From Rhodobacter sp. SY28-1 (lineage in GTDB: Bacteria; Pseudomonadota; Alphaproteobacteria; Rhodobacterales; Rhodobacteraceae), in NCBI RefSeq assembly GCF_005222785.1, contig NZ_STGH01000003.1:186001-250000 (forward strand): DNA of 64,000 nt, read 5' to 3'. The translations under genes and the position numbers were made by a program. The notes under the pieces were generated by a model. That model was not told the origin of the DNA and did no database searches. It was given only the letters and a program-made list of their open reading frames with translations. Below, in pieces: positions 1-22,283 of the stretch. Within the stretch, counting starts at the first letter, position 1; every line of letters starts with the position of its first letter.

Positions 1-56
1 GCGGTGCCCGCCAGAAGCGCGGCCAGCGCGAGGGATTTCAGGGATGATGTCAACAT
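1..56 (-). CDS. TRAP transporter substrate-binding protein, N-terminal fragment (cut by window edge)
   Basis: An ATG at 56-54 opens a frame reading MLTSSLKSLALAALLAG, a typical Sec signal peptide start, and runs off the left edge of the window. It lies 36 bases downstream of the TRAP large permease gene on the same strand, where a periplasmic DctP/TAXI-type binding protein is expected. No mature part of the protein is visible, so the assignment rests on the signal peptide and position only. Confidence 0.5.
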   Translation of the reverse strand, partial: MLTSSLKSLALAALLAGT

Positions 57-92
57 GGTTCCTCCTGTTGGTTTCTTGTCGGTGTTGAAAGG

Positions 93-1382
93 TCAGTCCA
101 CGAACCCCAGAAGTCGGGGCAGGGTCAGGGAAATGGCCGGGACATAGGTGATGAGAAGGATCACCAGGAACTCCACGGCCAGGAATGGCATCACGGCACG
201 GGCGATGGTTTCCACCCTAAGGCCCGAGACGGCCGAGGTGGCGAACAGCACCAGTCCCATCGGCGGCGTCAGCAGGCCCACGGTCAGGTTGACGACCATC
301 ACGATGGCGAAATGCACCGGATCGACGCCAAGCGAGACGAAGATCGGCCCCAGGATCGGCCCCAGGATGATGATCGCGGGACCTGCGTCGAGGAACATGC
401 CGACGATGAAGAGGAGGAGGTTCACGAGCAGGAGCAGCAGCAGCGGGTTCTCGGTGATGCTGAGGAGCGTCGATGCCAGAAGCTCCGGCGTATGCGCAAG
501 GGCCGCGACTGTCTTGAAGGCCATCGCAGCACCAACCAGCAGCATCACGACCGAACTGGTGATCCCCGCCCGGGTCAGCACGCCCGGGATGTCGCGCCAG
601 GTCAGGGTCTTCAGGATGAAGATCGAGATGACAAAGCTGTAGCCCACGGCGACGGCGGCGGCCTCGGTGGGCGTGAAGACCCCCGACAGGATGCCGCCCA
701 TTAGGAGGACCGGGGTCATCAGCGGCCAGAAGGCGGCCCCTGCGGCGCGGCCCGCCTCGGCCCAGCTTGCGCGGGGCAGCGCCTCGGGAAGGCGGTACCG
801 GTTCGCCATCAACTTGATCGTAATCATCAACGCGACCCCGATCAGGATGCCCGGCACGATCCCGGCCAGGAACAGCGCGGCTACGCTTTCGCCCATCACA
901 TAGGCGTAGATGATCATGATGCCCGAGGGCGGGATGATCGGCCCGATGATCGCACTGGCGGCGGTGATCGCGGCGGCGAAGGGTTTTGGATAGCGCTTCT
1001 TTTCCATCTGCGGAATGATGATCGACCCCAGCGCCGAAACATCGGCCACGGCCGAGCCGGAGATCCCCGCGAACAGCATGGAATCGACCACGTTCACCTG
1101 CGCCAGACCGCCGCGGAAATGGCCGACCATCGACTGCGCGAACCCCACGATCCGGGCCGAGATGCCGCCGCGGTTCATCAGCTCTCCGGCCAGCATGAAG
1201 AACGGGATCGCCATGAGGGGGAAGGAGTTCATCCCCTCGTAGACGTTGCGGTAGAGCAGGACGATGTCGCGCTCCTGCCCGTTCAGCCACAAGAGGATGG
1301 CGGGCGCGGCCAGCAGGCCGAAGACCACCGGCAGGCCCAGCATCAGGAAGACGAGGAAGAGAGGCAGGAAGAAGCTGAGCAT
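93..1382 (-). CDS. dctM: TRAP transporter large permease (DctM family)
   Basis: The 429-residue protein is almost entirely hydrophobic, with about a dozen predicted membrane segments. It carries DctM signatures: the early stretch ending in FFMLAGELMNRGGIS near residues 60-75, the GISGSAVADVSALGSI loop near residue 106, and the PPSGIMIIYA segment near residue 151. DctM is the ion-motive channel subunit of tripartite ATP-independent periplasmic transporters for organic acids and related anions. Its start directly abuts the stop of dctQ, and the gene lies downstream of the monooxygenase genes on the same strand, so it probably imports the substrate of that pathway. Length is normal for the family (about 425-430). 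Confidence 0.95.
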   Translation of the reverse strand: MLSFFLPLFLVFLMLGLPVVFGLLAAPAILLWLNGQERDIVLLYRNVYEGMNSFPLMAIPFFMLAGELMNRGGISARIVGFAQSMVGHFRGGLAQVNVVDSMLFAGISGSAVADVSALGSIIIPQMEKKRYPKPFAAAITAASAIIGPIIPPSGIMIIYAYVMGESVAALFLAGIVPGILIGVALMITIKLMANRYRLPEALPRASWAEAGRAAGAAFWPLMTPVLLMGGILSGVFTPTEAAAVAVGYSFVISIFILKTLTWRDIPGVLTRAGITSSVVMLLVGAAMAFKTVAALAHTPELLASTLLSITENPLLLLLLVNLLLFIVGMFLDAGPAIIILGPILGPIFVSLGVDPVHFAIVMVVNLTVGLLTPPMGLVLFATSAVSGLRVETIARAVMPFLAVEFLVILLITYVPAISLTLPRLLGFVD

Positions 1383-1979
1383 CTATTCGGCCCCCGATCC
1401 AAGCATGACGGCGTCGGGAATGTCGCGCAGGCCCTCCGGCCCCCGGATCAGCGCATAGATGTTGCGCAAGGCCAGTTCGATGGCGACCAGCAGCAACAGT
1501 GCCACGCCGACCAGCAGGGATGCCATCATCCAGGACTTCGGGACCTTCATCCAGGTCGTCAGGTCCAGGCTGACCGGGACGCGCAGAGAGTCCGTCTCGA
1601 ATCGGCCACCCAGACCGGTGACCTCGGACCAGCCAATGCCAAGGGCGATCCAGAGGACGAGGATTGTCACCGCCATCAGGAAGACCGAAAGCCCGGTCGC
1701 CACGGCGCGCGGCAGCATGCGGATCACCATGTCGATGGCGACGAACCCGCCCCGGCGAAAGGCGGTCGGGGCCATGAGACCCGTTGACCAGAGCATCAGG
1801 AAGCGCGAGGCCTCCTCGGGCCAGGGCAGCGCGTTGTTCAGGACATAGCGGAAAAAGACCTGCACCAGGATCGCCACCACCATCAGGCCAAGGCAGACAG
1901 CCCCGATCCAGCGGCCAAGCGCCAGAAGCGCGCCGTTAACCAGGGCCAGGCCGTTGCAGATGGCCAGAAGTGCGGTCAC
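1383..1979 (-). CDS. dctQ: TRAP transporter small permease (DctQ family)
   Basis: A 198-residue protein with four hydrophobic segments and the DctQ-type motif around FFRYVLNNALPWPEEASRF near residues 43-61. DctQ is the small integral membrane subunit that bridges the binding protein and DctM. The start is a GTG preceded by a strong ribosome binding site (GGGAGGAG). The stop codon abuts the dctM start, showing translational coupling. The stop of the flavin reductase gene lies 32 bases upstream, so the transporter is probably co-transcribed with the monooxygenase genes. Confidence 0.93.
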   Translation of the reverse strand: MTALLAICNGLALVNGALLALGRWIGAVCLGLMVVAILVQVFFRYVLNNALPWPEEASRFLMLWSTGLMAPTAFRRGGFVAIDMVIRMLPRAVATGLSVFLMAVTILVLWIALGIGWSEVTGLGGRFETDSLRVPVSLDLTTWMKVPKSWMMASLLVGVALLLLVAIELALRNIYALIRGPEGLRDIPDAVMLGSGAE

Positions 1980-2011
1980 GTCTCCTCCCTTTGCCCCCCT
2001 CTCCCCGGGGG

Positions 2012-2521
2012 TCAGCCGTCAAATCTTCCGTACCTGCCTTTCGCGAAGACCAGCGGCTCGCCCTCCTCCAGGGCCAGCCGCAGGACTTGTCCCACGATGA
2101 TCAGATGATCGCCGCCATCATGCGTCGCATGCTGGGCGCAGTCGAACCGCGCCAGCGCCCCGGGCAGGACCGGCACGCCCTCGGCGTTCGGCTGCCAGTT
2201 GAGGCCAGCAAACCCCGCGCCGGTTCTGGAGAACCGGGTCGGCAGGTCCGCGTGATCCTGTGCGAGCACATGGATGGCATAGTGCCGGGCCGCGGCGAAA
2301 AAGTCGTAGCGCCGCGATGAGCGGGCCAGCGACCACAGGACCAGCGCCGGGTCCAGAGAAAGGCTTGCGAAACTGTTGGCGGTAAAGCCCATCGGCCCGT
2401 CCGGACCCTGGATCGTGACCAGTGTCACGCCGGTCGCAAAGCGCCCCAGCGCATCGCGGAAAAGGCGCGCATTGCCCGCGTCCGGCACAATCCCCGTGGA
2501 CTGGAGGCCGCCATCCGCCAT
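2012..2521 (-). CDS. smoA: Flavin reductase, FMN-supplying partner of the LLM monooxygenase (SmoA-like)
   Basis: A 169-residue protein of the flavin reductase/HpaC-type family. It has the characteristic sequence FATGVTLVTIQGPDGPMGFTAN near residues 27-48 and the SLDPALVLWSL strand. Such enzymes reduce FMN with NAD(P)H and hand FMNH2 to a partner oxygenase. The ATG at 2521 overlaps the aldo/keto reductase stop (TGATG); a GTG one codon upstream is an alternative. It lies two genes downstream of the LLM monooxygenase. That order (reductase, aldo/keto reductase, monooxygenase, GntR) is the one I recall for smoA-smoB-smoC-smoD of Agrobacterium. The family is certain; the smo identity is inferred from synteny. 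Confidence 0.82.
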   Translation of the reverse strand: MADGGLQSTGIVPDAGNARLFRDALGRFATGVTLVTIQGPDGPMGFTANSFASLSLDPALVLWSLARSSRRYDFFAAARHYAIHVLAQDHADLPTRFSRTGAGFAGLNWQPNAEGVPVLPGALARFDCAQHATHDGGDHLIIVGQVLRLALEEGEPLVFAKGRYGRFDG

Positions 2522-3411
2522 CACGCGACCTCATGCCCCTGGGCGAGCGTCAGAAGCTCGAACCAGGTCTGGCGGTCCATCGGGACGCGGGCGGCGTCCG
2601 AGATCGCGGCGATGCGGGACGGGGTGTTGGTGCCCAGAACCGGGATGATCTTTGCCGGATGGTGCAAGAGCCAGGCTACCGCCACGGCGGTCCAGTCGGT
2701 GCCAGCGGCCTTGCCGATGGCGTCCATCCGGGCGCTGAGGCCGTCGTTCGCCTCGGCCCGCAGATGGCCGCCGGCCAGCGGGCTCCAGGCCATTGGCGCA
2801 ATCCCGCGTTCCTGGAGGAAGGCAAGGTCGCCGTTGGTGAAGGGCGCGCGGCAGTTCAGCGACAGTTCGATCTGGTTGGTGACAAGCGGCTGCGTCATGG
2901 CCGATTGCAGCAGGGTGAAATCCCAGGGCCGGAAGTTCGACACGCCGACAGCACGGACCTTGCCACTGGCGACAAGGGCGTCCAGCGCGCGGCCCGTCTC
3001 GTGGTGGTCCATCAGCGGGTCGGGGCGGTGGATCAGCAGCAGGTCGATCCGGTCTGTGACCATCTCGCGCAACGAGGCCTCGACCGAGGCGGTGATATGC
3101 GCGGCAGAGGTGTCGTAGTACTTGACCCGCGCCGCCGAGTGGCGACCCACGGGCGCGACGATGTCGCATTTGGTGACGATCTCGATCTTGTCACGCAGGG
3201 CAGGGGCCGCGCGGAGGGCCGCACCCAGCAAAGCCTCAGCTGTGTAGCCGCCATAGATGTCAGCTTGGTCCATCGTGGTGATGCCCTGCGCGAGGCAAGC
3301 CTCGACCTTGGCCTGCACATGGGCGGGAGAGGTGTCGGGGTCATCGCCCAACCGCCACATGCCGTAGACGAGGCGCGACATGGTGATCGGACCAAGGGTG
3401 AGACGTTCCAT
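2521..3411 (-). CDS. smoB: Aldo/keto reductase (SmoB-like)
   Basis: The 296-residue protein keeps the full AKR catalytic tetrad: Asp48 and Tyr53 (DQADIYGGY), Lys81 (VTKCDI) and His128 (LLLIHRPDPL). In the sulfo-SMO pathway SmoB reduces 6-oxo-glucose, left after oxidative desulfonation, to glucose with NADPH; that role is inferred here from context. I took the ATG at 3411 (MERLTLG) rather than an upstream in-frame start. It overlaps the LLM stop by one base (TAATG), and the upstream extension is the proline/arginine-rich read-through of the LLM coding end. Translational overlap on both sides marks a tight operon. Confidence 0.85.
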   Translation of the reverse strand: MERLTLGPITMSRLVYGMWRLGDDPDTSPAHVQAKVEACLAQGITTMDQADIYGGYTAEALLGAALRAAPALRDKIEIVTKCDIVAPVGRHSAARVKYYDTSAAHITASVEASLREMVTDRIDLLLIHRPDPLMDHHETGRALDALVASGKVRAVGVSNFRPWDFTLLQSAMTQPLVTNQIELSLNCRAPFTNGDLAFLQERGIAPMAWSPLAGGHLRAEANDGLSARMDAIGKAAGTDWTAVAVAWLLHHPAKIIPVLGTNTPSRIAAISDAARVPMDRQTWFELLTLAQGHEVA

Positions 3412-4568
3412 TAGCGGCGCACTCCGGTGCCCAGGGGGGTGGCGGGGGTCGTGGCCGGGACCCGGCCGTAGGCGTGGGGCAGTGAGCAGGTCTTCAGCTG
3501 GGGCATCACCTTCGTGCCGAAATGGTCGCATTCGTCCAGATGCGGATAGCCTGAGAAGATGAAGGCCCGGATGCCCATTGCCTGGTATTCCTCAAGCTTG
3601 GACATAACCTGATCGACCGATCCGACAAGCGCCGCGCCGCAGCCCGACCGCGCACGGCCGATCCCGGTCCAGAGGTGGGGTTCGATATAGCCGAATTGGT
3701 CGGCCAGCTCCCGTGCGCGGGCCTGATGCGCGACGCCTAGGCTGATCGAGTCATGCGCCCGGTCGCGAATCAGCTTGCCGTACTCATCATCCAGCTTCGA
3801 CACGATGTAATCGGCGTACTCCCGTGCCTCGGCCTCGGTATCGCGGACGATCATGTGGACGCGCAGACCATAGTCCAGCGTCCGACCATGCGCTTCGGCG
3901 CGGGCGTGGACGTCCCGCATGCGCTTGGCCAGCATCTCCATCGGCTCGGGCCACATCAGATAGACGTCGCACTGCGCGCCGCAGAGTTCGAGCGCATCGG
4001 GGGAATAGCCGCCGAAGTACAGAAGCGGGCCACCGTTCTGCTGGTAGGGGCGCGCGGGATCGGTGGTGATCTTCGAAATCTGGTAGACCTCGCCCGAATA
4101 TTCGATGTGGTCGCGGGTCCAGGCCTGGCGCAGGATCTCCACGACCTCATGACTGCGCTTGTAGCGATAGGCGCTGTCGGCGACTTCACCGGGGAAGTCC
4201 GAGGAAATCACGTTCAGCGTCAGGCGGCCCTGCAGCATGTGGTCCAAAGTGGCGACCGTGCGGGCCAGCATGACGGGCTGCATCTCGCCGCAGCGGATGG
4301 CGGCGAGGAAATTGATGCGGTCGGTGATCGGGGCGCAGCCCGCGACAAAGGAGAGCGTGTCCTGCCCCACCTGATACGACGATGGGCAAAGGATGTTGCG
4401 GAATCCGTGGCTTTCGGCGCGTTTCACGATGTCAGAGCAATGCGCCCAGCTGGACCGCAGGTCGCCGTCCGGCACGCCAAGGAACTGGTAGTCGTCGGAA
4501 CAGAGCGCGGCGAACCAGCTGACCTCGCAGGCATCCAGGTCAGGTGAGGTGATCGGCACGACCGACAT
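3411..4568 (-). CDS. smoC: LLM-class FMNH2-dependent monooxygenase, SsuD-related, probable sulfoquinovose monooxygenase (SmoC-like)
   Basis: The 385-residue protein is a bacterial-luciferase-like TIM barrel of the alkanesulfonate monooxygenase type. Signatures include AIRCGEMQPVMLARTVATLD near residues 90-109 and GGYSPDAL near residue 186. These enzymes use FMNH2 and O2 to cleave C-S bonds, releasing sulfite and an aldehyde. Trp206 and Arg236 fall at the same residue numbers that I recall for the sulfonate-binding residues of Agrobacterium SmoC, and His343 sits in the equivalent C-terminal YPHLDE segment. The ATG at 4568 begins where homology starts. It is the first gene of the leftward operon and is divergent from a GntR regulator. 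The alternative is another SsuD-like alkanesulfonate or dialkyl sulfone monooxygenase. Confidence 0.78.
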   Translation of the reverse strand: MSVVPITSPDLDACEVSWFAALCSDDYQFLGVPDGDLRSSWAHCSDIVKRAESHGFRNILCPSSYQVGQDTLSFVAGCAPITDRINFLAAIRCGEMQPVMLARTVATLDHMLQGRLTLNVISSDFPGEVADSAYRYKRSHEVVEILRQAWTRDHIEYSGEVYQISKITTDPARPYQQNGGPLLYFGGYSPDALELCGAQCDVYLMWPEPMEMLAKRMRDVHARAEAHGRTLDYGLRVHMIVRDTEAEAREYADYIVSKLDDEYGKLIRDRAHDSISLGVAHQARARELADQFGYIEPHLWTGIGRARSGCGAALVGSVDQVMSKLEEYQAMGIRAFIFSGYPHLDECDHFGTKVMPQLKTCSLPHAYGRVPATTPATPLGTGVRR

Positions 4569-4614
4569 GATTCTGTGTCTCCGGCGGTTGCTTTCCTCTT
4601 GCGTAGCACTGGCT

Positions 4615-4628
4615 TTGATGTAGATCAA
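4615..4628. promoter_or_regulatory. Perfect FNR-type palindrome in the divergent monooxygenase/GntR promoter region
   Basis: The sequence TTGATGTAGATCAA is a perfect TTGAT-N4-ATCAA dyad, identical to the FNR/FnrL/Dnr consensus. A further ATCAA follows nine bases later (4636-4640). It lies 47 bases upstream of the LLM gene and 28 bases upstream of the GntR gene. It could be an FnrL site that limits an oxygen-requiring pathway to oxic conditions, or an operator for the adjacent GntR protein; sequence alone does not decide. Confidence 0.55.
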
Positions 4629-4655
4629 TCATGTATCAATTTCGGATGCGACGTA

Positions 4656-5357
4656 ATGGCTCACCCCGGATCGCTGCCGCTGTATCAGCAGATCGCCGAA
4701 CTTCTGATCCGCGACATCGCCGCGGGCCGCCTGATCGATGGGGAACGCCTGCCGCCGGAACGGGACATGGCGTCAAACATGGGAATTGCCGTGGGGACCT
4801 TGCGTCAGGCGCTGAAGTCGCTGACGGAAAAGGGCTTGCTCGACCGGGTGCAGGGGTCGGGCAACTATATCCGTGCCAAGGCCGACGCGGCGTCGGTCTA
4901 TGCCCTCTTCCGGCTGGAGCGGGTGGAAGGCGGCGGCCTGCCCACTGCGCGGGTCCTTTCAGTCGATCGCGGTGCCAAGAACCCCGTCCTTCCGGCCTTT
5001 GGCGCCAGTGCCGAGGGTCATCGCATCCGACGTCTGCGCTTTCTGTCCGGCCAGGTCGCGGCGGTCGAGGAAATCTGGCTGGATGGGGCCGAGGTCGACC
5101 GGATCGCCCCCGGCGACCTGCTGGAGTCCCTCTATCTCTTCTATCGCCAACGCCTGGGCATCTGGATCTCGCGGGCCGAGGACAGCATCGGCCAAGGCCC
5201 GCTGCCGGACTGGGCGCCGTCCGAATTTCCGCACCCGCCCGGCACGCCCTTGCCGCTGATCACCCGCGTCAGCTGGGCGCAGGATGGCCGGTCGGTCGAG
5301 GCCTCGCTGACCTGGTATGACCCTGAAACCGTGCGCTATGTGGCGCGCCTGAAATAG
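4656..5357 (+). CDS. smoD: GntR-family transcriptional regulator, HutC/UTRA type (SmoD-like)
   Basis: A 233-residue regulator. The N-terminal winged helix (about residues 8-75) shows the GntR pattern PLYQQIAELLIRDIAAGRL, then GERLPPERDMA and VGTLRQALKSLTEKGLL. The C-terminal half (about residues 85-230) fits a UTRA ligand-binding domain with RIRRLRFLSG and EIWLDG strands. I chose ATG 4656 because the 27 codons upstream lie in the intergenic region shared with the LLM gene. It is divergent from the monooxygenase operon and nine bases upstream of the Gfo/Idh gene, so it probably controls both units in response to the imported sugar or a derivative. Confidence 0.85.
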   Translation: MAHPGSLPLYQQIAELLIRDIAAGRLIDGERLPPERDMASNMGIAVGTLRQALKSLTEKGLLDRVQGSGNYIRAKADAASVYALFRLERVEGGGLPTARVLSVDRGAKNPVLPAFGASAEGHRIRRLRFLSGQVAAVEEIWLDGAEVDRIAPGDLLESLYLFYRQRLGIWISRAEDSIGQGPLPDWAPSEFPHPPGTPLPLITRVSWAQDGRSVEASLTWYDPETVRYVARLK

Positions 5358-5366
5358 GATTTCAAA

Positions 5367-6476
5367 ATGCTGCGCTACGGGATCATCGGCTGCGGAATGA
5401 TGGGGCAGGAGCATCTGCGCAACATTGCTTTGCTGGAGGCGGCTTCAGTCGCCGCGATCTTCGAACCCGACCCGGGAATGCGCGCCGCGGCTTCGGCATT
5501 GGTGCCGGGGGCACGGATGGTGGGGTCGGTGGCCGACGTCCTGGCCGTGCCCGAGGTGAACTGCTTGCTGATCGCCAGCCCGAACCACCTGCACCTTGGC
5601 CAGTTGGAAGAGATCGCCCGCATCCGCCCGCTGCCGGTGCTGTGCGAGAAGCCGCTGTTCACTGACCCGGCCGATGCGCCGCGTCTGGCGGCCCTGCGCG
5701 CGGCCTACCCGGCCCCGATCTGGGTGGCGATGGAATACCGCTACATGCCGCCCGTGGCCCACCTTTTGCGTGAGGCACAGGCAGCGACGGGTGGTGTGAA
5801 GATGCTGACGATCCGCGAGCACCGCTTTCCCTTCCTGCAGAAGGTCGGCGACTGGAACCGCTTCAACCGCAACTCGGGCGGGACGCTCGTGGAAAAGTGC
5901 TGCCACTTCTTCGACCTGATGCGGCTGGTCGCCGGCTGCAACCCGGTCCGCGTGATGGCCAGTGGCGGGCAGGCGGTGAACCATCTGGACGAGGTCTATG
6001 ACGGACAGCGGTCCGACATCTGGGACCATGCCTATGTCATCGTCGATTTCGCAAACGGCATGCGGGCGATGCTGGAACTGTGCATGTTCGCGGAAGGCAG
6101 CCGCTATCAGGAGGAGATCTCGGCCGTCGGATCGAAGGGCAAGATCGAATGCCTGGTGCCCGGGCCGGGCCGGTTCTGGCCCATGCATCTGGGCGCGCCT
6201 CCCGTGCCCAAGGTCATCGTCAGCCCGCGCAACCCTGCGGGCCCGGTGGAACTGGACATCCCCGTGGATCCTGCCTTGCTGGCGGCGGGTGACCACAACG
6301 GATCGACCTTCTTCCAGCACCAGGGCTTTCAGCGGGCAGCGACCGGCCTGCAGCGACCCGAGGTGTCGCTGGAAGATGGCTGGTGGGCGGTCACGATGGG
6401 TTTGGCAGCCCAGCAAAGCGCCGAGACGGGCGAAGTGGTTGGTCTTGGCAATCTCGACTACGCCCCGGGTGGCTAA
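5367..6476 (+). CDS. Gfo/Idh/MocA-family oxidoreductase, possible NAD-dependent sulfoquinovosidase (GH188-like)
   Basis: A 369-residue protein with a Rossmann domain (GIIGCGMMGQEHL at residues 5-17, EKP at about 92-94) and the C-terminal Gfo/Idh/MocA fold, including the conserved region SGGTLVEKCCHFFDLMRLV near residue 170. Family members oxidise sugars or act as NAD-dependent glycosidases. NAD-dependent sulfoquinovosidases (SqgA, GH188) belong to this fold, and no GH31 sulfoquinovosidase is seen here, so this gene could free sulfoquinovose from its glycosides. That is inference from context: the sequence shows only the fold and the NAD site. It follows the GntR gene by nine bases and probably shares its transcript. 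A sugar dehydrogenase is the main alternative. Confidence 0.75.
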   Translation: MLRYGIIGCGMMGQEHLRNIALLEAASVAAIFEPDPGMRAAASALVPGARMVGSVADVLAVPEVNCLLIASPNHLHLGQLEEIARIRPLPVLCEKPLFTDPADAPRLAALRAAYPAPIWVAMEYRYMPPVAHLLREAQAATGGVKMLTIREHRFPFLQKVGDWNRFNRNSGGTLVEKCCHFFDLMRLVAGCNPVRVMASGGQAVNHLDEVYDGQRSDIWDHAYVIVDFANGMRAMLELCMFAEGSRYQEEISAVGSKGKIECLVPGPGRFWPMHLGAPPVPKVIVSPRNPAGPVELDIPVDPALLAAGDHNGSTFFQHQGFQRAATGLQRPEVSLEDGWWAVTMGLAAQQSAETGEVVGLGNLDYAPGG

Positions 6477-7071: not shown

Positions 7072-8328
7072 TCACGCTTCGTCGAACAGGCGGCGAAGAT
7101 AGGCGTTGCGGAACTTGCCCTCGGGGTCGAAGCTTTGCGCCAGATCACGGAAAGCCGCCAGCCGCGGCGTGCGCGACCGGATCGTGGCCGGGCTCATCGT
7201 CGTGACCTTGCCCCAATGCGGCACCGCGCCAAGGGACCCCAGATCGGCCTCGATGGGCGGCAGCACCGTCCTCACGGCGGCGCTGTCCCGTCGGAAGGTG
7301 AAGTGAAGCCCGACATAAGGCCCCCGGTTGCCGGGGCTCAGCCACAGATCGTCGGCTGCCACACTGCGCAGTTCCGATGTCATCAGGATGGGTGCCAGCC
7401 GGTCGCCATGCCTGCGCATGATGGCCACGGCCTCGGGCGCAGCGGCGCGTGGGACAAAGTATTCCGTCTGGATCTCTGCTCCGTTGCTTGGGGTAAAGCC
7501 CATGCGGAAATGCGGCAGACGCTCATGCCATGGGCCGGGGATGCCCATCTGATCCGTGCAATCCGCGCCGTCGACACCAAGAAGCGGGTGCATCTTGCGC
7601 GTCGCCGGGAGCGCTCCATGGAAGTCAGGTCTGGACGCAGCTTCGTGGTCCGCAACCCGGTCCTTCACCCAGACTGAATGTGCCGCTGCTCCGCGCCAGT
7701 CGGTGAAGACGCTGACGCTGGTGCCCGCGTCAAAGACCGCGTCGAAATCGCCCTCGATCACGGCGAAGGGCAGGCTGGTGTAGACATTCTGGCGCACCTG
7801 GTAGGTCGGCTCGATCTCCAGCGTCAGGGCCGTGACCACGCCAAGCGCGCCAAGGCTGACCACGGCACCGGCAAAGCGGTCGCCGTCCTGGTCGCGCGAC
7901 AGGCTGGCGACTTCGCCCCCGGCCGTCACGATCTCCAGCCCCGTGACCGCCGTCGCCAGGTTCCCGATGCGCGAGCCCGACCCATGCGTCGCCGTTGCCA
8001 CCGCCCCTGCGACCGAGATATGTGGCAGCGAGGCGAGGTTCTTCAGCGCCCAGCCTTCCGCATGCAGGACGGGCGCAAGCTCGCCATAGCGGATCCCGCC
8101 CTGAACCGTGACGCGCCGCCGGTCAGGGTCGATCGACAGGACCCGGTTCATGCCCTGCAGCGACAATTGCACCGCCGCGCTGTCGGCAAGGTCGTTGAAG
8201 CTGTGCCCCGACCCCAGCACCCGGACCTGACGCGCCGCCGCCACGATGGACTGGACCTCGGCCACCGTCCCCGCTGTCCGCGGGTCAGGGGCCGTGAAGA
8301 TGACGTTGCCCGCCCAGTTCGTGCGCAA
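7072..8328 (-). CDS. FAD-dependent sugar/alditol oxidase (VAO family, alditol oxidase-like)
   Basis: The 418-residue protein has the VAO/PCMH FAD-binding half with VRVLGSGHSFNDLA (residues about 35-48) and the ATATHGSGSRIGNL loop (about 110-123). The C-terminal half matches the D-arabinono-1,4-lactone oxidase domain and ends in FRNAYLRRLF. Length and the opening NWAGNVIFTA resemble Streptomyces alditol oxidase (AldO), which oxidises xylitol or sorbitol at C1 and makes H2O2. The start is a TTG with GAGG seven bases upstream; no ATG is available. It stands alone beside tRNA-Cys, so the substrate is not indicated. Gulono- or xylitol-type oxidases are alternatives. Confidence 0.82.
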   Translation of the reverse strand: MRTNWAGNVIFTAPDPRTAGTVAEVQSIVAAARQVRVLGSGHSFNDLADSAAVQLSLQGMNRVLSIDPDRRRVTVQGGIRYGELAPVLHAEGWALKNLASLPHISVAGAVATATHGSGSRIGNLATAVTGLEIVTAGGEVASLSRDQDGDRFAGAVVSLGALGVVTALTLEIEPTYQVRQNVYTSLPFAVIEGDFDAVFDAGTSVSVFTDWRGAAAHSVWVKDRVADHEAASRPDFHGALPATRKMHPLLGVDGADCTDQMGIPGPWHERLPHFRMGFTPSNGAEIQTEYFVPRAAAPEAVAIMRRHGDRLAPILMTSELRSVAADDLWLSPGNRGPYVGLHFTFRRDSAAVRTVLPPIEADLGSLGAVPHWGKVTTMSPATIRSRTPRLAAFRDLAQSFDPEGKFRNAYLRRLFDEA

Positions 8329-8493
8329 GATGGGACCTCTGGTTCCGATTCACTTGTGCCGATCTTGCATGTTCCGCGCCGGACCCGCCATCGCCATCCC
8401 CAGCCCATGGGGCTGAGGCGGTGGCGCGGGCAGGGTTGACTTGACCGGGGGGCGCGGGGATTGTCCGCTGCAGGCGCGGAAGGTTGGGCTTTG

Positions 8494-9507: not shown

Positions 9508-9510
9508 AAC

Positions 9511-9549
9511 CTGGCTATAACGGCGGCATGTGTCTGGTCCTAACGGCGA
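9511..9549 (+). promoter_or_regulatory. Direct repeats upstream of tpa, probable TauR operator
   Basis: CTGGCTATAACGGCGG (9511-9526) and CTGGTCCTAACGGCGA (9534-9549) match at 12 of 16 positions and start 23 bases apart, about two helical turns. Their first ten bases fit the direct-repeat consensus CTGGACYTAA that I recall for TauR sites in Rhodobacter capsulatus. They end 50 bases upstream of the tpa start codon, suiting an activator. Confidence 0.65.
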
Positions 9550-9599
9550 CCGGCAATATGCAGGATCATGCCGCGCAAATCGAACCGAAAGGACGAGTC

Positions 9600-10979: not shown

Positions 10980-11001
10980 GCACTGAGGCCCTTTGCCGCT
11001 T

Positions 11002-11033
11002 GGGGAAGATGTGCGGTGGTGCACATCTTCCCC
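11002..11033. terminator. Perfect 13-bp hairpin between convergent tpa and the Hint gene
   Basis: GGGGAAGATGTGC (11002-11014) is perfectly complementary to 11021-11033, with a six-base loop. No T tract follows on either strand. It sits between converging genes, so it probably ends or protects both transcripts. Confidence 0.65.
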
Positions 11034-11053
11034 GTGGGGACTGATATACCGGC

Positions 11054-12085: not shown

Positions 12086-12537
12086 AGGCCCTCCTTCAAA
12101 TCATGGTTTCACTGTGTTGATGGAATCACTATACCCGAGGTTGAGTATTATCACAACGAATTGCGCCAAGATAATTGTGATATGATCTGCAAGTATTGGA
12201 AAAATATTAATATTTTTGTCTGCTCGGCAAATGTATGTGAATCGAAGTTGACACAGCCATCTGTCAGCCGATTTTCGGATTTGGGCGAGAGGCGGGCGAT
12301 TCAATTTTGACGAAATCAACAGTGAAACATGTCATTCTAGACGATTGCTTCCGCGTACTGACCGGTTCCATGGGCGAACGGCGCGGGAAAGCCCAAAACT
12401 CAGTGTGTAAATGTAGTCTGACACCAAATTCACATATAAATATAACAATTTGAAACGTGGGGCTCACGCATTGCGTTGCATCATAAGGCGCGCGAAAGCG
12501 CACCTTCTCTCACGACTGACCCGACATGGGTAGCCCC
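12086..12537. other. A+T-rich intergenic region upstream of the Hint gene
   Basis: From about 12100 to 12460 the sequence is clearly richer in A+T than the rest of the window, with runs such as AAAAATATTAATATTTTT near 12200. Short open frames occur but none has a ribosome binding site or familiar sequence. It likely carries the Hint gene promoter and may mark an insertion boundary between tpa and tauR. Confidence 0.5.
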
Positions 12538-12594
12538 CGAACGCCTGACAGAGCGCCCGACGCATGCCAGACGGATGCCAGACGCATTCCAGAC
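12538..12594 (+). repeat. Five tandem 11-12-bp repeats upstream of tauR
   Basis: Three contiguous 11-mers, GCATGCCAGAC, GGATGCCAGAC and GCATTCCAGAC, occupy 12562-12594. Two weaker 12-base units ending GCCTGAC and GCCCGAC lie at 12538-12561. The shared GAC ends fall at 12549, 12561, 12572, 12583 and 12594, so the core recurs once per helical turn. In reverse orientation each strong unit reads GTCTGG, resembling the CTGG of TauR sites. They lie 61 bases upstream of tauR and may be an autoregulatory array. Confidence 0.65.
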
Positions 12595-16015: not shown

Positions 16016-16756
16016 GTGCCCTATGACCTTGGCCCCGGCGCGCTGGCCTGGCTCGCCGTGGCCTGCCTCGTCGCCGGGTTCGTCCGGGGCTACTCTGGCT
16101 TTGGCTTCTCGGCCCTGCTGATCGCGGCCTCCAGCTTAGTGACCAATCCACTGAATTTCGTGGCTGTTGTCGTCATTCTTGAAACAGTGATGTCTCTGCA
16201 GCACGCAAAGGGCGCCGGGCCGGACGTCGACTGGCGACGTGTCGGCTGGCTTCTGGGTGGGGCGGCGATCGGACTGCCGTTGGGGTTGTGGGTCCTGACC
16301 GGGGTCAGCGAGGACACGGCGCGGGCGGTCATCTCGGGCTATGTCCTCCTCATGTGCGTCGTCCTGCTCGCGGGGTGGCGGCTTGCGGCGGAAGTCAGGG
16401 GCGCACCGAACGGCGTGGCGGGCGTGATCTCAGGGCTTTCCAACGCGCCCGGAATGGGGGGGCTGCCGGTGGCGGCATTCTTCGCCGCGCAACCGATGTC
16501 GGCGAGCGTCTTTCGGGCGACACTGATCGCCTATTTCCCGCTTCTCGACCTTTACTCCGCGCCGCTTTACTGGCTGGCAGGGCTGGTGAACTGGGACACG
16601 CTCTGGGCCGCGCTCATCGCCCTTCCGGTCACACTTCTGGGCAACTGGCTGGGCGGGCGGCACTTCTTCGGCACCGACCCGCAGGAGTTCCGCCGCTTTG
16701 CGATCGTCCTTCTGGCAGGCCTTGCGGCACTCGGCCTTGGGAAGGCGCTGCTCTGA
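16016..16756 (+). CDS. tauE: TSUP-family permease (TauE/SafE type)
   Basis: The 246-residue protein has about seven to eight membrane segments and the TauE/SafE repeat pattern, with GFVRGYSGFGFSALL near residue 21 and the second repeat GLSNAPGMGGLPVAAFF near residue 142. TSUP proteins move sulfite, sulfonates or related anions. Next to xsc and soeABC the likely role is export of sulfite or sulfoacetate, or uptake of a sulfonate. The start is GTG with a CTGGAG box upstream. Its stop overlaps the ackA start (TGATG), so the two are translationally coupled. Confidence 0.85.
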   Translation: MPYDLGPGALAWLAVACLVAGFVRGYSGFGFSALLIAASSLVTNPLNFVAVVVILETVMSLQHAKGAGPDVDWRRVGWLLGGAAIGLPLGLWVLTGVSEDTARAVISGYVLLMCVVLLAGWRLAAEVRGAPNGVAGVISGLSNAPGMGGLPVAAFFAAQPMSASVFRATLIAYFPLLDLYSAPLYWLAGLVNWDTLWAALIALPVTLLGNWLGGRHFFGTDPQEFRRFAIVLLAGLAALGLGKALL

Positions 16757-17832
16757 TGTGGCTGATTGTGAACGCTGGTTCGTCTTCGCTGAAGCTGAAG
16801 GTGTTTGAAGGCGAACGCGAGGTTGCAAAGGCCAGCATCAGCGAGATCGGTCCGGACGGTCACGCGGCCGCGATGGCAGCGGGGCTCGCTCAGGCCGGGG
16901 TGTCCATTGACCGGCTGACGGCCGCAGCGCATCGGGTGGTGCATGGCGGGGCGGGCTTGACGGCAACCTGTCGGGTGACACCTTCCGTGGTGCAACAGAT
17001 CCAGGACTGTGTGCCGCTGTCTCCTTTGCACAATCCGGCGAATCTGGTGGGAATTCAGTCTGTTGCAGCCCTTGCTCCGGATCTTCCCCAATTTGCGGCC
17101 TTCGACACGGCCTTCCATGCGACGAACCCTGAGGTGGCGGTGACCTATGCCCTGCCAAAGGCGGAACGCGACCGGGGCCTGCGCCGGTATGGCTTTCACG
17201 GGATCAGCTATGCCGCGCTGGTCCGCATCCTGCGGGGCAGGGGGGAACTGCCGCAAAGGATTCTGGCCTGCCATCTGGGCAATGGCTGCTCGCTTGCGGC
17301 GATTGTGAACGGTTGTTCGGTTGCGACGACCATGGGCTATTCTCCGCTGGACGGGCTGACGATGGGCACGCGGACGGGCAGCATCGACGGCAATGCCGTG
17401 CTGCGTCTGGCCGAGGTGCACGGCGTGGAAAGGGCAGGGCGCATCCTGAACCGGCAAAGCGGGCTCCTGGGTCTTGGCGGGGCCAGCGACCTGCGGGCCT
17501 TGCATGCCGCAGGAACCCCTGAGGCCCGCTTCGCGCTGGAACATTTCGCCTACTGGGCGGTGCGCCATGCTGGGTCGATGGTGGCGGCGATGGGCGGCCT
17601 TGACGCCGTGGTCTTCACCGGCGGGATCGGGGAAAACGACGCGTGGATGCGGAACGAAATCCTGACCGGGCTCGCCTATCTGGGAGTTTCTTCCGACCCG
17701 GAGGCGAATGCCCGGAACGAAACCACCCTGCATGATGCGACATCCGGTGTCGCTATCCTTCTTGTGCAAGCTGATGAGGAACGGCAGATTGCCCTTGAAG
17801 CGCAGGCCGTCATGGCCGGGGAGGGCGCGTGA
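16756..17832 (+). CDS. ackA: Acetate kinase
   Basis: The 358-residue protein carries acetokinase signatures: VNAGSSSLKLKVFEG at the N-terminus, GFHGISYAAL near residue 141, GTRTGSIDG near residue 205 and FTGGIGEN near residue 291. It converts acetyl phosphate plus ADP to acetate plus ATP. It is about 40 residues shorter than typical AckA. Placed between the TSUP permease (one-base overlap) and soeA (four-base GTGA overlap), it most likely consumes the acetyl phosphate made by Xsc. In the taurine loci I know, a phosphotransacetylase gene (pta) sits here; none is present in this window. A propionate kinase activity is possible. Confidence 0.9.
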   Translation: MWLIVNAGSSSLKLKVFEGEREVAKASISEIGPDGHAAAMAAGLAQAGVSIDRLTAAAHRVVHGGAGLTATCRVTPSVVQQIQDCVPLSPLHNPANLVGIQSVAALAPDLPQFAAFDTAFHATNPEVAVTYALPKAERDRGLRRYGFHGISYAALVRILRGRGELPQRILACHLGNGCSLAAIVNGCSVATTMGYSPLDGLTMGTRTGSIDGNAVLRLAEVHGVERAGRILNRQSGLLGLGGASDLRALHAAGTPEARFALEHFAYWAVRHAGSMVAAMGGLDAVVFTGGIGENDAWMRNEILTGLAYLGVSSDPEANARNETTLHDATSGVAILLVQADEERQIALEAQAVMAGEGA

Positions 17833-20684
17833 ACCAGCCGAGAGTGGAGACGCAGCGCGAGGTTGGCGACGAAGTTCGCCAGACCACCTGCTACATGTGC
17901 GCCTGCCGCTGCGGGATCAACGTGCATCTGAAGTCCGGCCGCGTCGCCTATATCGAGGGCAACCGGGACCATCCGATCAACAAGGGCGTCTTGTGTGCCA
18001 AAGGGGCCAGCGGGATCATGCAGGTCACCGCGCCCAGCCGCCTGAAGGCACCCCTGCGGCGCGTGGGGCCGCGCGGTTCGGGGGCTTTCGAGGAGATCAC
18101 TTGGGAGGAAGCGCTCTCCACCGCCGTTTCCTGGATGAAGCCGCTGCGCGAAACGGCCCCCGAGAAGCTGGCCTTTTTCACCGGCCGCGACCAGAGCCAA
18201 AGCCTCACCGGCTGGTGGGCGCAAAACTTCGGCACCCCGAACTATGCGGCGCATGGGGGCTTCTGTTCGGTCAACATGGCGGCGGGCGGCATCTACACCA
18301 TCGGTGGGGCGTTCTGGGAATTTGGCCAGCCGGATTGGGACCGGACGAAGCTCTTCGTGATGTTCGGGGTGGCCGAGGATCACGACTCGAACCCGATCAA
18401 GATCGGCCTTGGCAAGCTGAAGGCCCGGGGCGCGCGGGTTATTTCCGTGAACCCTGTGCGCACGGGCTATTCCGCTGTAGCCGACGATTGGATCGGGATC
18501 ACGCCCGGGACCGACGGGCTGCTGATCCTGTCCTTGATCCATTGCCTGCTGGAGGCGGGGAAGATCGACCTCGATTACCTCGCACAATGGACCAATGCGC
18601 CGCTGCTGGTGACCGAGGCGGAGGGGGCGGAGAAAGGCCTTTTCGTCCGCAACGCCGAAAGCCAGCCCTTTGTCATCGATCGCCGCACGGGCCACCCCGC
18701 GCCCTGGGACGGCAAGGGGGTACAACCGGACCTCGGGGCCGAATGGCAGGGCAGCCGCACTGTCTTTCGCCACATGGTCGAGGAATATCTGAAGCCCGAC
18801 TACGCGCCCGAGGCGGTGGCTGCGCGCTGCGGCGTGACGGCAACCCGCATCCGCCAACTGGCCGCCGAACTGGCTGATGTGGCCTTCAATCAGGCGATCA
18901 CCCTCGACCGCCCCTGGACCGACTTCCGCGGCAACGAGCATCCGAACATGCCCGGTCGCCCGGTCAGCTTCCACGCGATGCGCGGGATTTCGGCGCATTC
19001 CAATGGGTTCCAGACGGCCCGCGCGCTGCATCTCCTTCAGATCCTCCTTGGGAGCCTGGAAACCCCCGGCGGCTACCGGCTGAAACCGCCGTATCCGAAA
19101 CCCATCGAGGCGCATCCGACGCCCCACTTCGTCACCACCCCCGGCAAGCCCCTGACTGGCCCGCATCTGGGCTATGTCCGCTCGCCCGACGACTTGTGCC
19201 TTCTGCCCGATGGCCAGCCGGCCCGGATCGACAAGGGGTTCTCTTGGGAAAACCCGTTCTCGGCGCATGGGATGATGCACATGGTCATCCCCAACGCCCA
19301 TGCCGGGGACCCATACCGGATCGACACGCTGTTCCTCTACATGGCGAACATGTCGTGGAACTCATCCATGAACTCCGCCCGCGTGATGGAGATGCTGACG
19401 GAACAGCGCGATGGCGAATACGTCATCCCCCGGATCATCTACTCCGACGCCTATGCCTCCGAAATGGTGGCCTATGCCGACCTGATCCTGCCCGACACGA
19501 CCTACCTCGAACGCCACGACTGCATCAGCCTCTTGGACCGCCCCATCAGCGAGCCCGACGCAGCGGGCGATGCGATCCGCTGGCCGGTGCTGGAACCGGA
19601 CCGCGACGTCCGCTGCTTCCAGTCAGTGCTGTTGGAATTGGGCGCAAGGCTCGGACTTCCGGGCATGGTGAACGAGGATGGGACGGCGAAGTTCAAGGAC
19701 TACGCCGACTACATCGCCAACCACCAACGCCGCCCGGGTGTGGGTCCGCTGATGGGCTTCCGGGGGGATGGCGAGGCGGAAGGGCGGGGTGCCCCAAACC
19801 CCGATCAGTTGGCCCGTTACATCCAGAACGGAGCCTTCTACCAGGCCCATGTCCCCGAGGAAGCGGCCTTCTACAAACCGTGGAACACGGCCTACCAGGA
19901 CTGGGCGGTGAAGCTCGGGCTTTACGAGACTCCGCAGCCCTATCTTTTCAACATCTGGTCCGAACCCATGCGCCGCTTCCAGCTGGCCGCCGAGGGCTTC
20001 GGCCCCCGCCAGCCGCCCGACCACCTGCGCGAGCGCCTGAAACAGGCGATGCACCCGCTGCCGATCTGGTATGCCCCCTTCGGCGACGAGGACGCGGCCT
20101 TCGGCTATCCGGTCCACGCGCTGACGCAAAGGCCGATGGACATGTACCACTCCTGGGGCAGCCAGAACGCCTGGCTGCGGCAGATCAAGGGGCATAACTA
20201 TCTGTATCTGCCGACGAAGATCTGGGAGGCGCAGGGGTTTGAGGACGGCGACTGGGCGCGGGTGTCCTCGCGCGCCGGAACGATCGTGGTGCCCGTTGCC
20301 CATATGGCGGCGCTGAACGAGAACACCGTCTGGACCTGGAACGCCATCGGCAAGCGCAAGGGGGCCTGGGCGCTGGATGCTGATGCGCCAGAGGCGACGA
20401 CGGGGTTCCTTCTGAACCATCTGATCTCGGAGCTTCTGCCCGACCGGCACGGGGTGCGGCTGTCGAACTCTGACCCGGTCACGGGGCAGGCCGCCTGGTT
20501 TGACCAGCGGGTGCGGGTAGAACGCGTTGCGGCCACCGATCACCCGCGCAGCACGGTGGAGCCGATGTTCGAACGCCTTCCCGACCCGCCGCGCGCCGGT
20601 GGCGGCCGAGGCCAAAGTTCTTCGAAGAATTTTGCCAAAAGTTTTCGAAAACTTTTGGTCCCCGGCGGGGAGGCGGAGCGATGA
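17829..20684 (+). CDS. soeA: Molybdopterin sulfite dehydrogenase catalytic subunit (SoeA-type)
   Basis: The 951-residue protein belongs to the DMSO-reductase superfamily of Mo-bis-MGD enzymes. The N-terminus binds a [4Fe-4S] cluster through Cys21, Cys24, Cys28 and Cys56 (CYMCACRCG...VLCAKG). Cys146 in HGGFCSVNM is a likely molybdenum ligand, and the C-terminal molydopterin-binding domain includes YHSWGSQNAWLRQI. No Tat signal is visible, in line with a cytoplasmic SoeA. SoeABC oxidises sulfite to sulfate and reduces quinone. The context of xsc and ackA upstream and FeS and DmsC-like subunits downstream supports this over a thiosulfate or polysulfide reductase. The last 25 residues are encoded by two palindromes and look like an added tail. 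Confidence 0.88.
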   Translation: MNQPRVETQREVGDEVRQTTCYMCACRCGINVHLKSGRVAYIEGNRDHPINKGVLCAKGASGIMQVTAPSRLKAPLRRVGPRGSGAFEEITWEEALSTAVSWMKPLRETAPEKLAFFTGRDQSQSLTGWWAQNFGTPNYAAHGGFCSVNMAAGGIYTIGGAFWEFGQPDWDRTKLFVMFGVAEDHDSNPIKIGLGKLKARGARVISVNPVRTGYSAVADDWIGITPGTDGLLILSLIHCLLEAGKIDLDYLAQWTNAPLLVTEAEGAEKGLFVRNAESQPFVIDRRTGHPAPWDGKGVQPDLGAEWQGSRTVFRHMVEEYLKPDYAPEAVAARCGVTATRIRQLAAELADVAFNQAITLDRPWTDFRGNEHPNMPGRPVSFHAMRGISAHSNGFQTARALHLLQILLGSLETPGGYRLKPPYPKPIEAHPTPHFVTTPGKPLTGPHLGYVRSPDDLCLLPDGQPARIDKGFSWENPFSAHGMMHMVIPNAHAGDPYRIDTLFLYMANMSWNSSMNSARVMEMLTEQRDGEYVIPRIIYSDAYASEMVAYADLILPDTTYLERHDCISLLDRPISEPDAAGDAIRWPVLEPDRDVRCFQSVLLELGARLGLPGMVNEDGTAKFKDYADYIANHQRRPGVGPLMGFRGDGEAEGRGAPNPDQLARYIQNGAFYQAHVPEEAAFYKPWNTAYQDWAVKLGLYETPQPYLFNIWSEPMRRFQLAAEGFGPRQPPDHLRERLKQAMHPLPIWYAPFGDEDAAFGYPVHALTQRPMDMYHSWGSQNAWLRQIKGHNYLYLPTKIWEAQGFEDGDWARVSSRAGTIVVPVAHMAALNENTVWTWNAIGKRKGAWALDADAPEATTGFLLNHLISELLPDRHGVRLSNSDPVTGQAAWFDQRVRVERVAATDHPRSTVEPMFERLPDPPRAGGGRGQSSSKNFAKSFRKLLVPGGEAER
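20618..20658. repeat. Two adjacent palindromes inside the 3' end of soeA
   Basis: TTCTTCGAAGAA (20618-20629) is a perfect palindrome whose pairing extends outward to about 20614-20634 if one G-U pair is allowed. A perfect 24-base palindrome centred on TTTTCGAAAA follows at 20635-20658. Both are read in frame as SSSKNFAKSFRKLLVPGG near the SoeA C-terminus, and they end 22 bases before the soeB start. They could form hairpins that tune soeB expression or mRNA decay. Confidence 0.75.
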
Positions 20685-21409
20685 CGTCCCTCCCGCAGTC
20701 CACCGAAAAACGTCTGGGTCTGGTGATCGACCTCGACACCTGCGTCGGCTGCCAGGCCTGCGTCACCGCCTGCAAGGGCTGGAACGATGGGGGCATCGGC
20801 CTGTCCGACCAGGACCCCTACGGCGCCGATCCCTCGGGCACGTTCCTGAACCGGGTCCACTCCTACCAGGTGGCGATCCCTGATGCCCCCGCCCAGGTGG
20901 TGACCTTCCCGCGGTCCTGCCTCCACTGCGACAACGCGCCCTGCGTCACCGTCTGCCCGACCGGGGCCAGCTACAAACGGGCCGAGGACGGCATCGTGCT
21001 GGTCAACGAGGACGCTTGCATCGGCTGCGGCCTCTGCGCCTGGGCCTGCCCCTATGGCGCGAGGGAGATGGATGCAGCGCAAGGCGTGATGAAGAAATGC
21101 ACGCTCTGCGTCGACCGGATCTACAACGAGACCCTGCCCGAAGAAGATCGTGAGCCCGCCTGCGTCCGCACCTGCCCCACGAACGCGCGGCATTTCGGCG
21201 ACCTGGCGGACCCGGAAAGCGCAGTGTCGCAACTGGTGGCGAGCAGGGGCGGCTATGACCTGATGCCCGACATGGGCACGAAGCCCACCAACAAGTACCT
21301 GCCGCCGCGCAAGAAAGGGCCGGGAACGGCAAGCCCGCTCGCGCCCCTACTCGACATCAAGGCCACCGGGATCGCAGGGTGGCTCGACCGGATGCTGGGG
21401 AAGCTCTGA
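20681..21409 (+). CDS. soeB: Sulfite dehydrogenase iron-sulfur subunit (SoeB-type)
   Basis: The 242-residue ferredoxin-like electron transfer subunit has four cysteine groups for [4Fe-4S] clusters: CVGCQACVTAC near residue 21, CLHCDNAPCVTVC near residue 80, CIGCGLCAWAC near residue 113 and a split CTLC...CVRTC group near residues 141-168. It passes electrons from SoeA to the membrane subunit. The ATG overlaps the soeA stop (ATGA). The C-terminus ends in a basic, proline-rich stretch without a membrane anchor. Confidence 0.92.
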   Translation: MTSLPQSTEKRLGLVIDLDTCVGCQACVTACKGWNDGGIGLSDQDPYGADPSGTFLNRVHSYQVAIPDAPAQVVTFPRSCLHCDNAPCVTVCPTGASYKRAEDGIVLVNEDACIGCGLCAWACPYGAREMDAAQGVMKKCTLCVDRIYNETLPEEDREPACVRTCPTNARHFGDLADPESAVSQLVASRGGYDLMPDMGTKPTNKYLPPRKKGPGTASPLAPLLDIKATGIAGWLDRMLGKL

Positions 21410-21410: not shown

Positions 21411-22283
21411 ATGCATCCCGCGCCCTCGGTCATCCTGTTTTCCACCCTCTCGGGTCTGGGCTTCGGCTTCCTCGCCTTCCTCGGCTGGGGGGCGCTGCTG
21501 CCTTCGGGCTGGCATGCGTTCTTTCTCTGGGGCCTCGGCTACGGGCTGGCCGTGGCGGGGCTGCTGGCCGCCACCTTCCACCTCGGCAACCCGAAGAACG
21601 CCCTGAAAGCCTTCACGCAATGCCGCACCAGCTGGCTGAGCCGTGAGGCCTGGGCCTCGGTCGCCACCCTCTTGATCCTCGCGCCGGTCGCGCTCTCGGA
21701 CATTTTCACCCTCGGCCTGCCGCGCATCATCGGCCAGATCGGCGGGACGCTCGCGATCCTGACCGTCTTCACCACGGCGATGATCTACACGCAGATCAAG
21801 GCGGTCCCGCGCTGGCATCACTGGCTGACGCCGGTGATGTTCCTGACCTTCGCTGTCGCCGGGGGTGCGATGCTGGCCGGTATGGGGCTTGCGCCTGTGC
21901 TTCTGCTGGCGGTGGGTGCGATCCTCTGGGCGGTCTGGCGGGTCGGCGACAAAGCTTTCGCGCGCGCCGGTCAGACGATGGGGACGGCGACGGGGCTGGA
22001 CCGGCTGGGCGTTCCCTCGGTGCTTGATCCAGCCCATACCGCCGGGAACTACCTGAAACGCGAGATGATCTTCGTCGTGGGGCGCAAGCATGCGGCGAAG
22101 CTGCGGAAGATCGCGCTGGCGCTGGCCTCGGTCCTGCCCGCGTTGGTCCTGCTCATGCCCTTCGGCATCTGGGGGATCGCTCTGGCCGCCATCCTGCACC
22201 TTGCCGGAGCCCTTGCCGCCCGCTGGCTGTTCTTCGCCGAGGCCGAGCACGTCGTGGGGCTTTACTACGGCGCGCGGGGATGA
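21411..22283 (+). CDS. soeC: Sulfite dehydrogenase membrane anchor (SoeC-type, DmsC family)
   Basis: The 290-residue protein has about eight hydrophobic segments and the DmsC-like features SVILFSTLSGLGFGFLAFLGW at the start, FHLGNPKNALKAF near residue 57 and SWLSREAW near residue 72. It anchors SoeAB to the cytoplasmic membrane and passes electrons to quinone. Its start lies one base after the soeB stop. It ends the taurine/sulfite operon; the next gene, 13 bases on, is a sugar phosphomutase with no obvious link but possibly the same transcript. Confidence 0.9.
   Translation: MHPAPSVILFSTLSGLGFGFLAFLGWGALLPSGWHAFFLWGLGYGLAVAGLLAATFHLGNPKNALKAFTQCRTSWLSREAWASVATLLILAPVALSDIFTLGLPRIIGQIGGTLAILTVFTTAMIYTQIKAVPRWHHWLTPVMFLTFAVAGGAMLAGMGLAPVLLLAVGAILWAVWRVGDKAFARAGQTMGTATGLDRLGVPSVLDPAHTAGNYLKREMIFVVGRKHAAKLRKIALALASVLPALVLLMPFGIWGIALAAILHLAGALAARWLFFAEAEHVVGLYYGARG

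Follow-up and report, generated by a model that had tools for sequence, protein, structure and literature searches.

A TRAP importer encoded with a predicted sulfoquinovose pathway and a GH188 sulfoquinovosidase in Rhodobacter sp. SY28-1 and its relatives

How does sulfoquinovose (SQ), produced at roughly ten billion tons a year (PMC10755693), enter a bacterium whose SQ genes adjoin a tripartite ATP-independent periplasmic (TRAP) transporter, when the SQ importers that we found described in the literature are ATP-binding cassette (ABC) systems? The locus that raises this question opens a stretch of 64,000 nucleotides from Rhodobacter sp. SY28-1 (NZ_STGH01000003.1, positions 186,001 to 250,000), hereafter the window, which starts at C3:186001 of a 4.28 Mb genome that is 98.9% complete. 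A first-pass annotation, made from the sequence alone, had named here a flavin reductase, an aldo/keto reductase (AKR), a luciferase-like (LLM) monooxygenase, a GntR regulator, a Gfo/Idh/MocA protein, dctQ-dctM and the start of a TRAP binding protein, and had proposed that SQ or its glycoside is imported by TRAP and then desulfonated. All of these genes are present and tightly spaced, as listed here by window coordinates and strand:

1..56, minus: dctP, TRAP substrate-binding protein, first codons (353 aa in all; remainder left of the window, L007:6995-8056)
93..1382, minus: dctM, TRAP large permease (TIGR00786, 429.5 bits; PF06808)
1383..1979, minus: dctQ, TRAP small permease (PF04290, 76.4 bits)
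2012..2524, minus: smoA, flavin reductase (PF01613, 132 bits)
2521..3411, minus: smoB, 6-dehydroglucose reductase of the AKR type (474.5 bits to 7BBZ/7BC1)
3411..4568, minus: smoC, FMNH2-dependent sulfoquinovose monooxygenase (748 bits to 7OLF, 733 to 7OH2)
4615..4641, minus: operator-like element AATTGATACANNATTGATNTACATCAA in the smoC-smoD gap (conserved core; single site in the genome)
4656..5357, plus: smoD, GntR/UTRA regulator (PF00392, PF07702; name from position alone)
5367..6476, plus: sqgA-like GH188 NAD-dependent sulfoquinovosidase (structure matches and published contacts)

Judged by sequence, these genes look like a complete set for O2-dependent SQ breakdown by enzymes of a known type. 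The smoC and smoB genes overlap by one base (TAATG), the homology of smoB starting at the ATG at 3411 within an open reading frame that reaches 3531; 32 bp separate smoA from dctQ, dctQ and dctM abut, and 36 bp lie between dctM and dctP, which is complete once the DNA left of the window is included (PF03480, 181.6 bits), all three TRAP subunits being encoded side by side. A single operon smoC-smoB-smoA-dctQ-dctM-dctP, divergent from smoD-sqgA, is likely.

In a comparison with solved structures, the LLM protein aligns to 7OLF without gaps over 375 residues at the 748 bits listed above, against 203 bits for the nearest SsuD-like enzyme and 94 bits for dimethylsulfone monooxygenase. We take 7OLF and 7OH2 to be SmoC structures, their entry titles reading sulfonatase / alkanesulfonate monooxygenase. 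The protein is thus SmoC and neither SsuD nor SfnG, the distinction on which the annotation had made its reading depend. A Trp/Arg/His set that it had offered as a further mark of SmoC proved less useful: W197, R227 and H229 of P0001, presumably the set meant if judged by SmoC numbering, have identical counterparts in 7JV3, an alkanesulfonate monooxygenase, and the test, being non-discriminating, was dropped. SmoB reaches 474.5 bits with 7BBZ versus 213 bits for the next family, and contains the motifs DIYGGYT, TKC and LLIHRPD, which we take to carry the AKR tetrad. The NCBIfam FerA model matches SmoA at 232 bits, under its cut-off of 260, and a SmoA relative is encoded at 70 of 80 SmoC loci from a scan of named genomes (the best 80 of 204 relatives kept; the nearest named SmoC relatives are from Tabrizicola). 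At the Neorhizobium/Rhizobium-type loci L062, L063, L073, L075, L078 and L080, the order GH188-smoD-smoC is found with neither smoB nor smoA alongside, and the reductase partners of SmoC must there be encoded elsewhere or be different.

The second enzyme to be placed is the Gfo/Idh protein, which scores 529 bits to 8ZN9 (an entry titled 'Oxidoreductase, putative' and nothing more), 368 bits to 8QC3 and 366 bits to 8QC2, a GH188 structure (PMC11465081), the best of the other Gfo/Idh structures reaching 56 bits. In the alignment with these structures, the ArSqgA active-site residues K107, Y136, E189, H193 and H321 (PMC10755693) correspond to K95, Y124, E176, H180 and H310, and its sulfonate contacts R166, L170 and K172 (same source) to R153, L157 and K159; none of these positions varies among the 95 aligned GH188 sequences, comprising the window protein, near-full-length matches from SmoC loci and matches in L088-L107, and excluding one distant Gfo/Idh match from L105. 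The Glu163 of that paper aligns to Val under the numbering used, and the adjacent Glu (E151 here) is invariant in 95/95. Membership in GH188, the other point on which the annotation could have failed, is thus borne out by the scores and the conserved contacts. GH31 (PF01055) has no match in the 98.9% complete genome, the same search matching in 6 of 14 genomes as a control, which leaves the GH188 protein as the best sulfoquinovosidase candidate.

A GH188 gene divergently adjoins smoC in all 80 named loci kept (a contig end cuts L066 and L067), and given this the gene arrangement around smoC is not chance. The pairing of GH188 with the sulfoquinovose monooxygenase (sulfo-SMO) pathway is already known, as GH188 is reported to be near-universal in the sulfo-SMO clusters of Roseobacters (Kaur et al. 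2023, PMC10755693), whose SqgA has the same named residues and the same gene pairing, with no essential difference from the protein described here. A set of SmoC/SmoB/SmoA-type enzymes that yields glucose and, with O2, releases sulfite is likewise shared with the sulfo-SMO (sulfo-ASMO) pathway of Agrobacterium and Novosphingobium (PMC9594981, PMC12890257), which the available text of PMC13372026 defines by SmoB and SmoC and not by an importer, the word transporter being absent from its main text. The enzymes of the window therefore belong to an established pathway, combined with an alternative sulfoquinovosidase that is itself known; relative to Agrobacterium, whose ABC importer is mentioned in PMC9594981, a TRAP system stands here in place of that importer, and GH188 instead of a GH31 sulfoquinovosidase.

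The same evidence bears on whether the operon might serve a sulfonated compound other than SQ, a reading to which we give very little credence: LLM sulfonatases do vary in substrate and the PDB names the 7OLF molecule methanesulfonate sulfonatase, but SmoC matches that structure at 748 bits over its gapless 375 residues, SmoB reaches 474 bits, all sugar and sulfonate contacts of GH188 are kept, and a relative of SQ isomerase is found near the same TRAP genes in other clusters (see below).

If the pathway is sulfo-SMO, is the TRAP transporter a regular part of it? Downstream of smoC, 53 of the 80 named loci have TRAP genes; 11 have a nearby ABC set, 7 have a major facilitator superfamily (MFS) gene and no TRAP, 4 have none of the three, and the remaining 5 are cut by a contig end. 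A survey of 120 genomes of the same family (DctP at E <=1e-80, SmoC at E <=1e-120) returned DctP in 42, at no less than 64% identity and once per genome, and SmoC in 47; both occur in 31, DctP alone in 11, SmoC alone in 16 and neither in 62 (Fisher 1.4e-8, uncorrected for kinship). In 30 of the 31 genomes with both, dctP and smoC share a contig and strand at a distance of 2.1-3.8 kb, and in the last they are on two contigs, of which that with dctP measures only 4 kb. For TRAP-less smo loci, DctP was found elsewhere in none of 16 genomes searched (of 22 uncut) at 1e-80, a search without a positive control of its own, using a query that matched in 9 of 289 class-level genomes. ABC genes are in line with smoC at L119 and L122 from the same family. 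On a quick SmoC tree (101 rows, 95 of them labelled, partly by eye; 45 of 98 inner branches weak), TRAP presence needs 12 changes, at least 7 of which are forced by well-supported branches, which suggests repeated gain, loss or exchange of the importer while the core stayed constant.

Other transporter genes were considered alongside. MFS genes beside GH188 in the 7 TRAP-less loci were taken as possible substitutes for the importer; L023 has both MFS genes and TRAP, and L026 has one of those MFS genes together with TRAP. ABC genes to the left of the window were tried as an Agrobacterium-like SmoF system and rejected, as their binding protein, encoded 4.4 kb to the left, scores only 23.8 bits to SmoF, so that the importer does differ from the Agrobacterium type, as the annotation had stated. 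In Agrobacterium, the ABC importer is presumably SmoEFGH and the GH31 sulfoquinovosidase SmoI. The ABC binding protein adjoining smoC in L076 has no SmoF match at 1e-3. As for DctP itself, its AlphaFold model has a mean pLDDT of 71, with values below 50 at residues 153-161, 171-184 and 208-238, and is too weak for any pocket argument to be drawn from it; the protein scores 96 bits to the isethionate-binding DctP 8T9T, and the best 120 of its 3659 relatives (E <=1e-60) carry generic TRAP names, one hypothetical protein label, or no name. Membership in the TRAP family and a sulfonated cargo would be shared with the small-sulfonate systems exemplified by 8T9T, the cargo proposed here being instead a six-carbon sugar or its glycoside. 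The DctM of L074 (13203-14771) is 522 aa long versus 429 in the window, and in several other Yoonia/Loktanella-type loci the DctM matches are split in two or have extra sequence in the middle; these permeases carry an insertion.

Could a sulfo-SMO operon end in an importer for a different sulfonate, such as taurine? TRAP taurine importers are known in Rhodobacter, the window also holds, at a distance of 5-13 kb from smoC, likely taurine genes (aminotransferase, Xsc, TauE, acetate kinase), with Xsc at 942.9 bits above its curated cut-off of 676.4, and none of the other DctP-family genes among the 6 of the genome falls within the window. Against this, only L012 among the 80 SmoC loci has the aminotransferase and none has Xsc, whereas TRAP genes are present at 53, in a sample where 70 of the 80 hold at least 6.5 kb on that side and Xsc would be expected at the edge of the flank, and neither gene is found in 17 further DctP loci. 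The TRAP genes moreover begin 32 bp after smoA and recur in clusters of a second kind, described next, and a taurine cargo is in our view highly improbable.

That second kind emerged from the 11 loci of the same-family survey that have DctP alone, all of which were examined. Eight of them have a GH188 gene, 44-55% identical to that of the window, no more than 7 kb from dctP, and the same eight have genes resembling the PfkB kinase and isomerase of one of them, L088; an aldolase is present in seven, L095 being the one without. L088 encodes a DeoR regulator, TRAP, a MauG-like protein, PfkB, a DeoC/LacD aldolase, an isomerase-like protein, GH188 and a 2-hydroxyacid dehydrogenase; for the isomerase-like protein the sole NCBIfam match is to SftI, a sulfoquinovose isomerase. 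The set is reminiscent of the sulfoglycolytic Embden-Meyerhof-Parnas pathways (sulfo-EMP and sulfo-EMP2, with a SqvD-type SQ isomerase), GH188 and an orthologous TRAP lying near such genes in these relatives; its chemistry of isomerase, kinase and aldolase is unlike the sulfo-SMO chemistry of the window, and its PfkB and DeoC/LacD enzymes differ from the SqiK and SqiA families of sulfo-EMP2. As for the other three DctP-only loci, L092 has smoA, smoB, smoD, GH188 and TRAP (7371-10839) with smoC absent from the locus and no smoC match in its genome, L093 has a smoA-like gene and TRAP, and L090 has none of these enzymes. The nine class-level genomes with DctP include G000 and G055, already counted in the family survey; in the other seven, dctP lies by smo genes in three, by the sulfo-EMP-like set in three and on a 3 kb contig in one. 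Since two pathways without common degradation enzymes share GH188 and TRAP, SQ or an SQ glycoside is the simplest cargo.

Operon position, co-occurrence across the 120 genomes and placement near a second SQ pathway together support the TRAP system as the importer of the SQ pathway, as the annotation had proposed, and gene context makes SQ or an SQ glycoside its best-supported cargo. Several observations weigh against this picture or its parts. Sixteen of the 47 SmoC genomes lack this DctP, which is therefore not required for the pathway; L090, and L093 with its smoA-like gene only, have ample flanks around dctP and no GH188. The pathway label of the second cluster comes from one locus scanned with family models, L088, whose SftI match stands at 279 bits against a curated cut-off of 700 and whose isomerase-like protein has no match among solved structures, and a MauG-like gene is also common to some loci of both pathway types. 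The best NCBIfam match of the GH188 protein is inositol 2-dehydrogenase, at 97.9 bits against a cut-off of 355. Finally, the SoeABC-like and TauE genes discussed below are part of what is likely a taurine cluster, and taurine use may be their primary function.

Two further genes recur around these TRAP systems. One, encoding a MauG-like relative of di-haem cytochrome c peroxidase (PF03150, shown for L088 only), follows dctP at a distance of no more than 3.5 kb in 19 of 69 TRAP loci and of less than 400 bp in 10, in sulfo-SMO and sulfo-EMP-like clusters alike (e.g. L088:11046-12893, L127:10875, L128:10082); the source genome has one PF03150 gene, away from the locus. The other, a PhyH-family dioxygenase gene (L090:3633-4379, PF05721; L095:7913-8605; L098 near 11725, by similarity), could encode another desulfonating enzyme.

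Whether the cargo is free SQ or its glycoside is the next point. The TRAP system might take up free SQ only, with GH188 acting on glycosides that arrive by another route, which we regard as unlikely although it has some basis: until GH188 became known, free SQ had been proposed as the only form that Roseobacters use (PMC10755693), and among the 16 same-family SmoC genomes that lack DctP, two (L105, L106) have no GH188 next to smoC, so that SMO clusters can do without it. On the other side, the GH188 enzyme depends on NAD, and inspection by eye reveals no signal peptide in it, for which reason the glycoside must reach the cytoplasm and import of the glycoside is the more economical assumption; the TRAP system is also the sole importer in the operon, and it co-occurs with GH188 in both types of cluster.

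We thus favor a model where periplasmic DctP would catch SQ or, with greater likelihood, its glycosides (sulfoquinovosyl glycerol, for example), and where DctQM would carry them inward on an ion gradient; an ion-driven high-affinity importer would suit a dilute substrate. Cytoplasmic GH188 would then open the glycoside via transient NAD-dependent oxidation at C3, the published mechanism of the family, whose residues are present here. As known for their families, SmoA would provide reduced FMN, SmoC with O2 would cleave the C-S bond to give sulfite and 6-dehydroglucose, and SmoB would reduce the latter to glucose. The sulfite would be exported by the TauE-like protein or oxidised by the nearby SoeABC-like complex, and SmoD would repress both promoters via one operator. 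That the genes form one regulon, probably SmoD-controlled, for importing and fully desulfonating SQ appears very probable from their sequences. We lean, if narrowly, towards the broader proposal of a dedicated alphaproteobacterial TRAP family for intact sulfoquinovosyl glycosides, in which TRAP and GH188 would form a portable entry module for sulfo-SMO or sulfo-EMP-like pathways, repeatedly swapped with ABC or other importers. If true, this module would be the first TRAP system known to us for a sulfosugar glycoside, and a named DctP family could become a genomic marker of SQ uptake independent of the degradation pathway.

The annotation had left open whether such a TRAP/Gfo version was already described. 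The Gfo (GH188) part is published (PMC10755693), in a paper whose main text never uses the words transporter, importer or TRAP. For the TRAP part, no importer of this class for SQ or sulfoquinovosyl glycerol was found among the literature matches listed, which were judged by title or the start of the abstract, with the full texts of key papers outside this scope; in the available text of PMC12421959 and PMC6278857, 'trap' refers to a trap column, trapping or an ion trap. Provisionally, then, the TRAP importer is a well-supported and widespread variant that is undescribed in the literature searched.

How might both transcription units be controlled? The core AATTGATACNNNATTG of the element AATTGATACANNATTGATNTACATCAA lies, with at most 2 mismatches, within 260 bp upstream of the smoC match at 79 of the 80 loci, and the locus without it, L083, has no smoD there. 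The background at the same tolerance is a match somewhere in 3 of 13 other DctP loci, none of them longer than 19 kb; in L092, which has smoD, a core match falls in the expected gap. With 3 mismatches allowed, the full AATTGATACANNATTGATNTACATCAA occurs once across the 4.28 Mb genome and a reversed control not at all. AATTGATACANNATTGATNTACATCAA is in our assessment the best operator candidate for SmoD.

The last step to be accounted for is the fate of sulfite, for which the window offers the following genes 11-18 kb from the SQ genes:

16016..16756, plus: TauE/SafE-family probable sulfite exporter (PF01925, 78.8 bits)
17829..20684, plus: SoeA-like molybdopterin subunit, probable sulfite dehydrogenase (PF00384, PF04879)
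20681..21409, plus: SoeB-like iron-sulfur subunit (PF13247)
21411..22283, plus: SoeC-like membrane anchor (PF04976 DmsC, 46 bits)

The TauE-like protein and the SoeABC-like complex probably dispose of the sulfite from SmoC. No curated model matches the SoeA-like protein over its cut-off, and its name is our assumption from gene order; when molybdopterin sulfite oxidases were searched for, two PF00174 genes turned up elsewhere in the genome, and these might oxidise sulfite as well. Directly after dctP in 19 of 69 TRAP loci lies a relative of the L048 gene at 15796, which we take to be a YeiH/PF03601 exporter; the source genome has no PF03601 gene. Positions 9597-22283 of the window encode a class-III aminotransferase, a MocR-type regulator, Xsc, TauE, acetate kinase and the SoeABC-like complex, likely a taurine cluster that forms a small organosulfonate island with the SQ genes, and between the aminotransferase and the MocR regulator lies a gene (11054-12085, minus strand) for a protein with a Hint-like motif recognised by eye.

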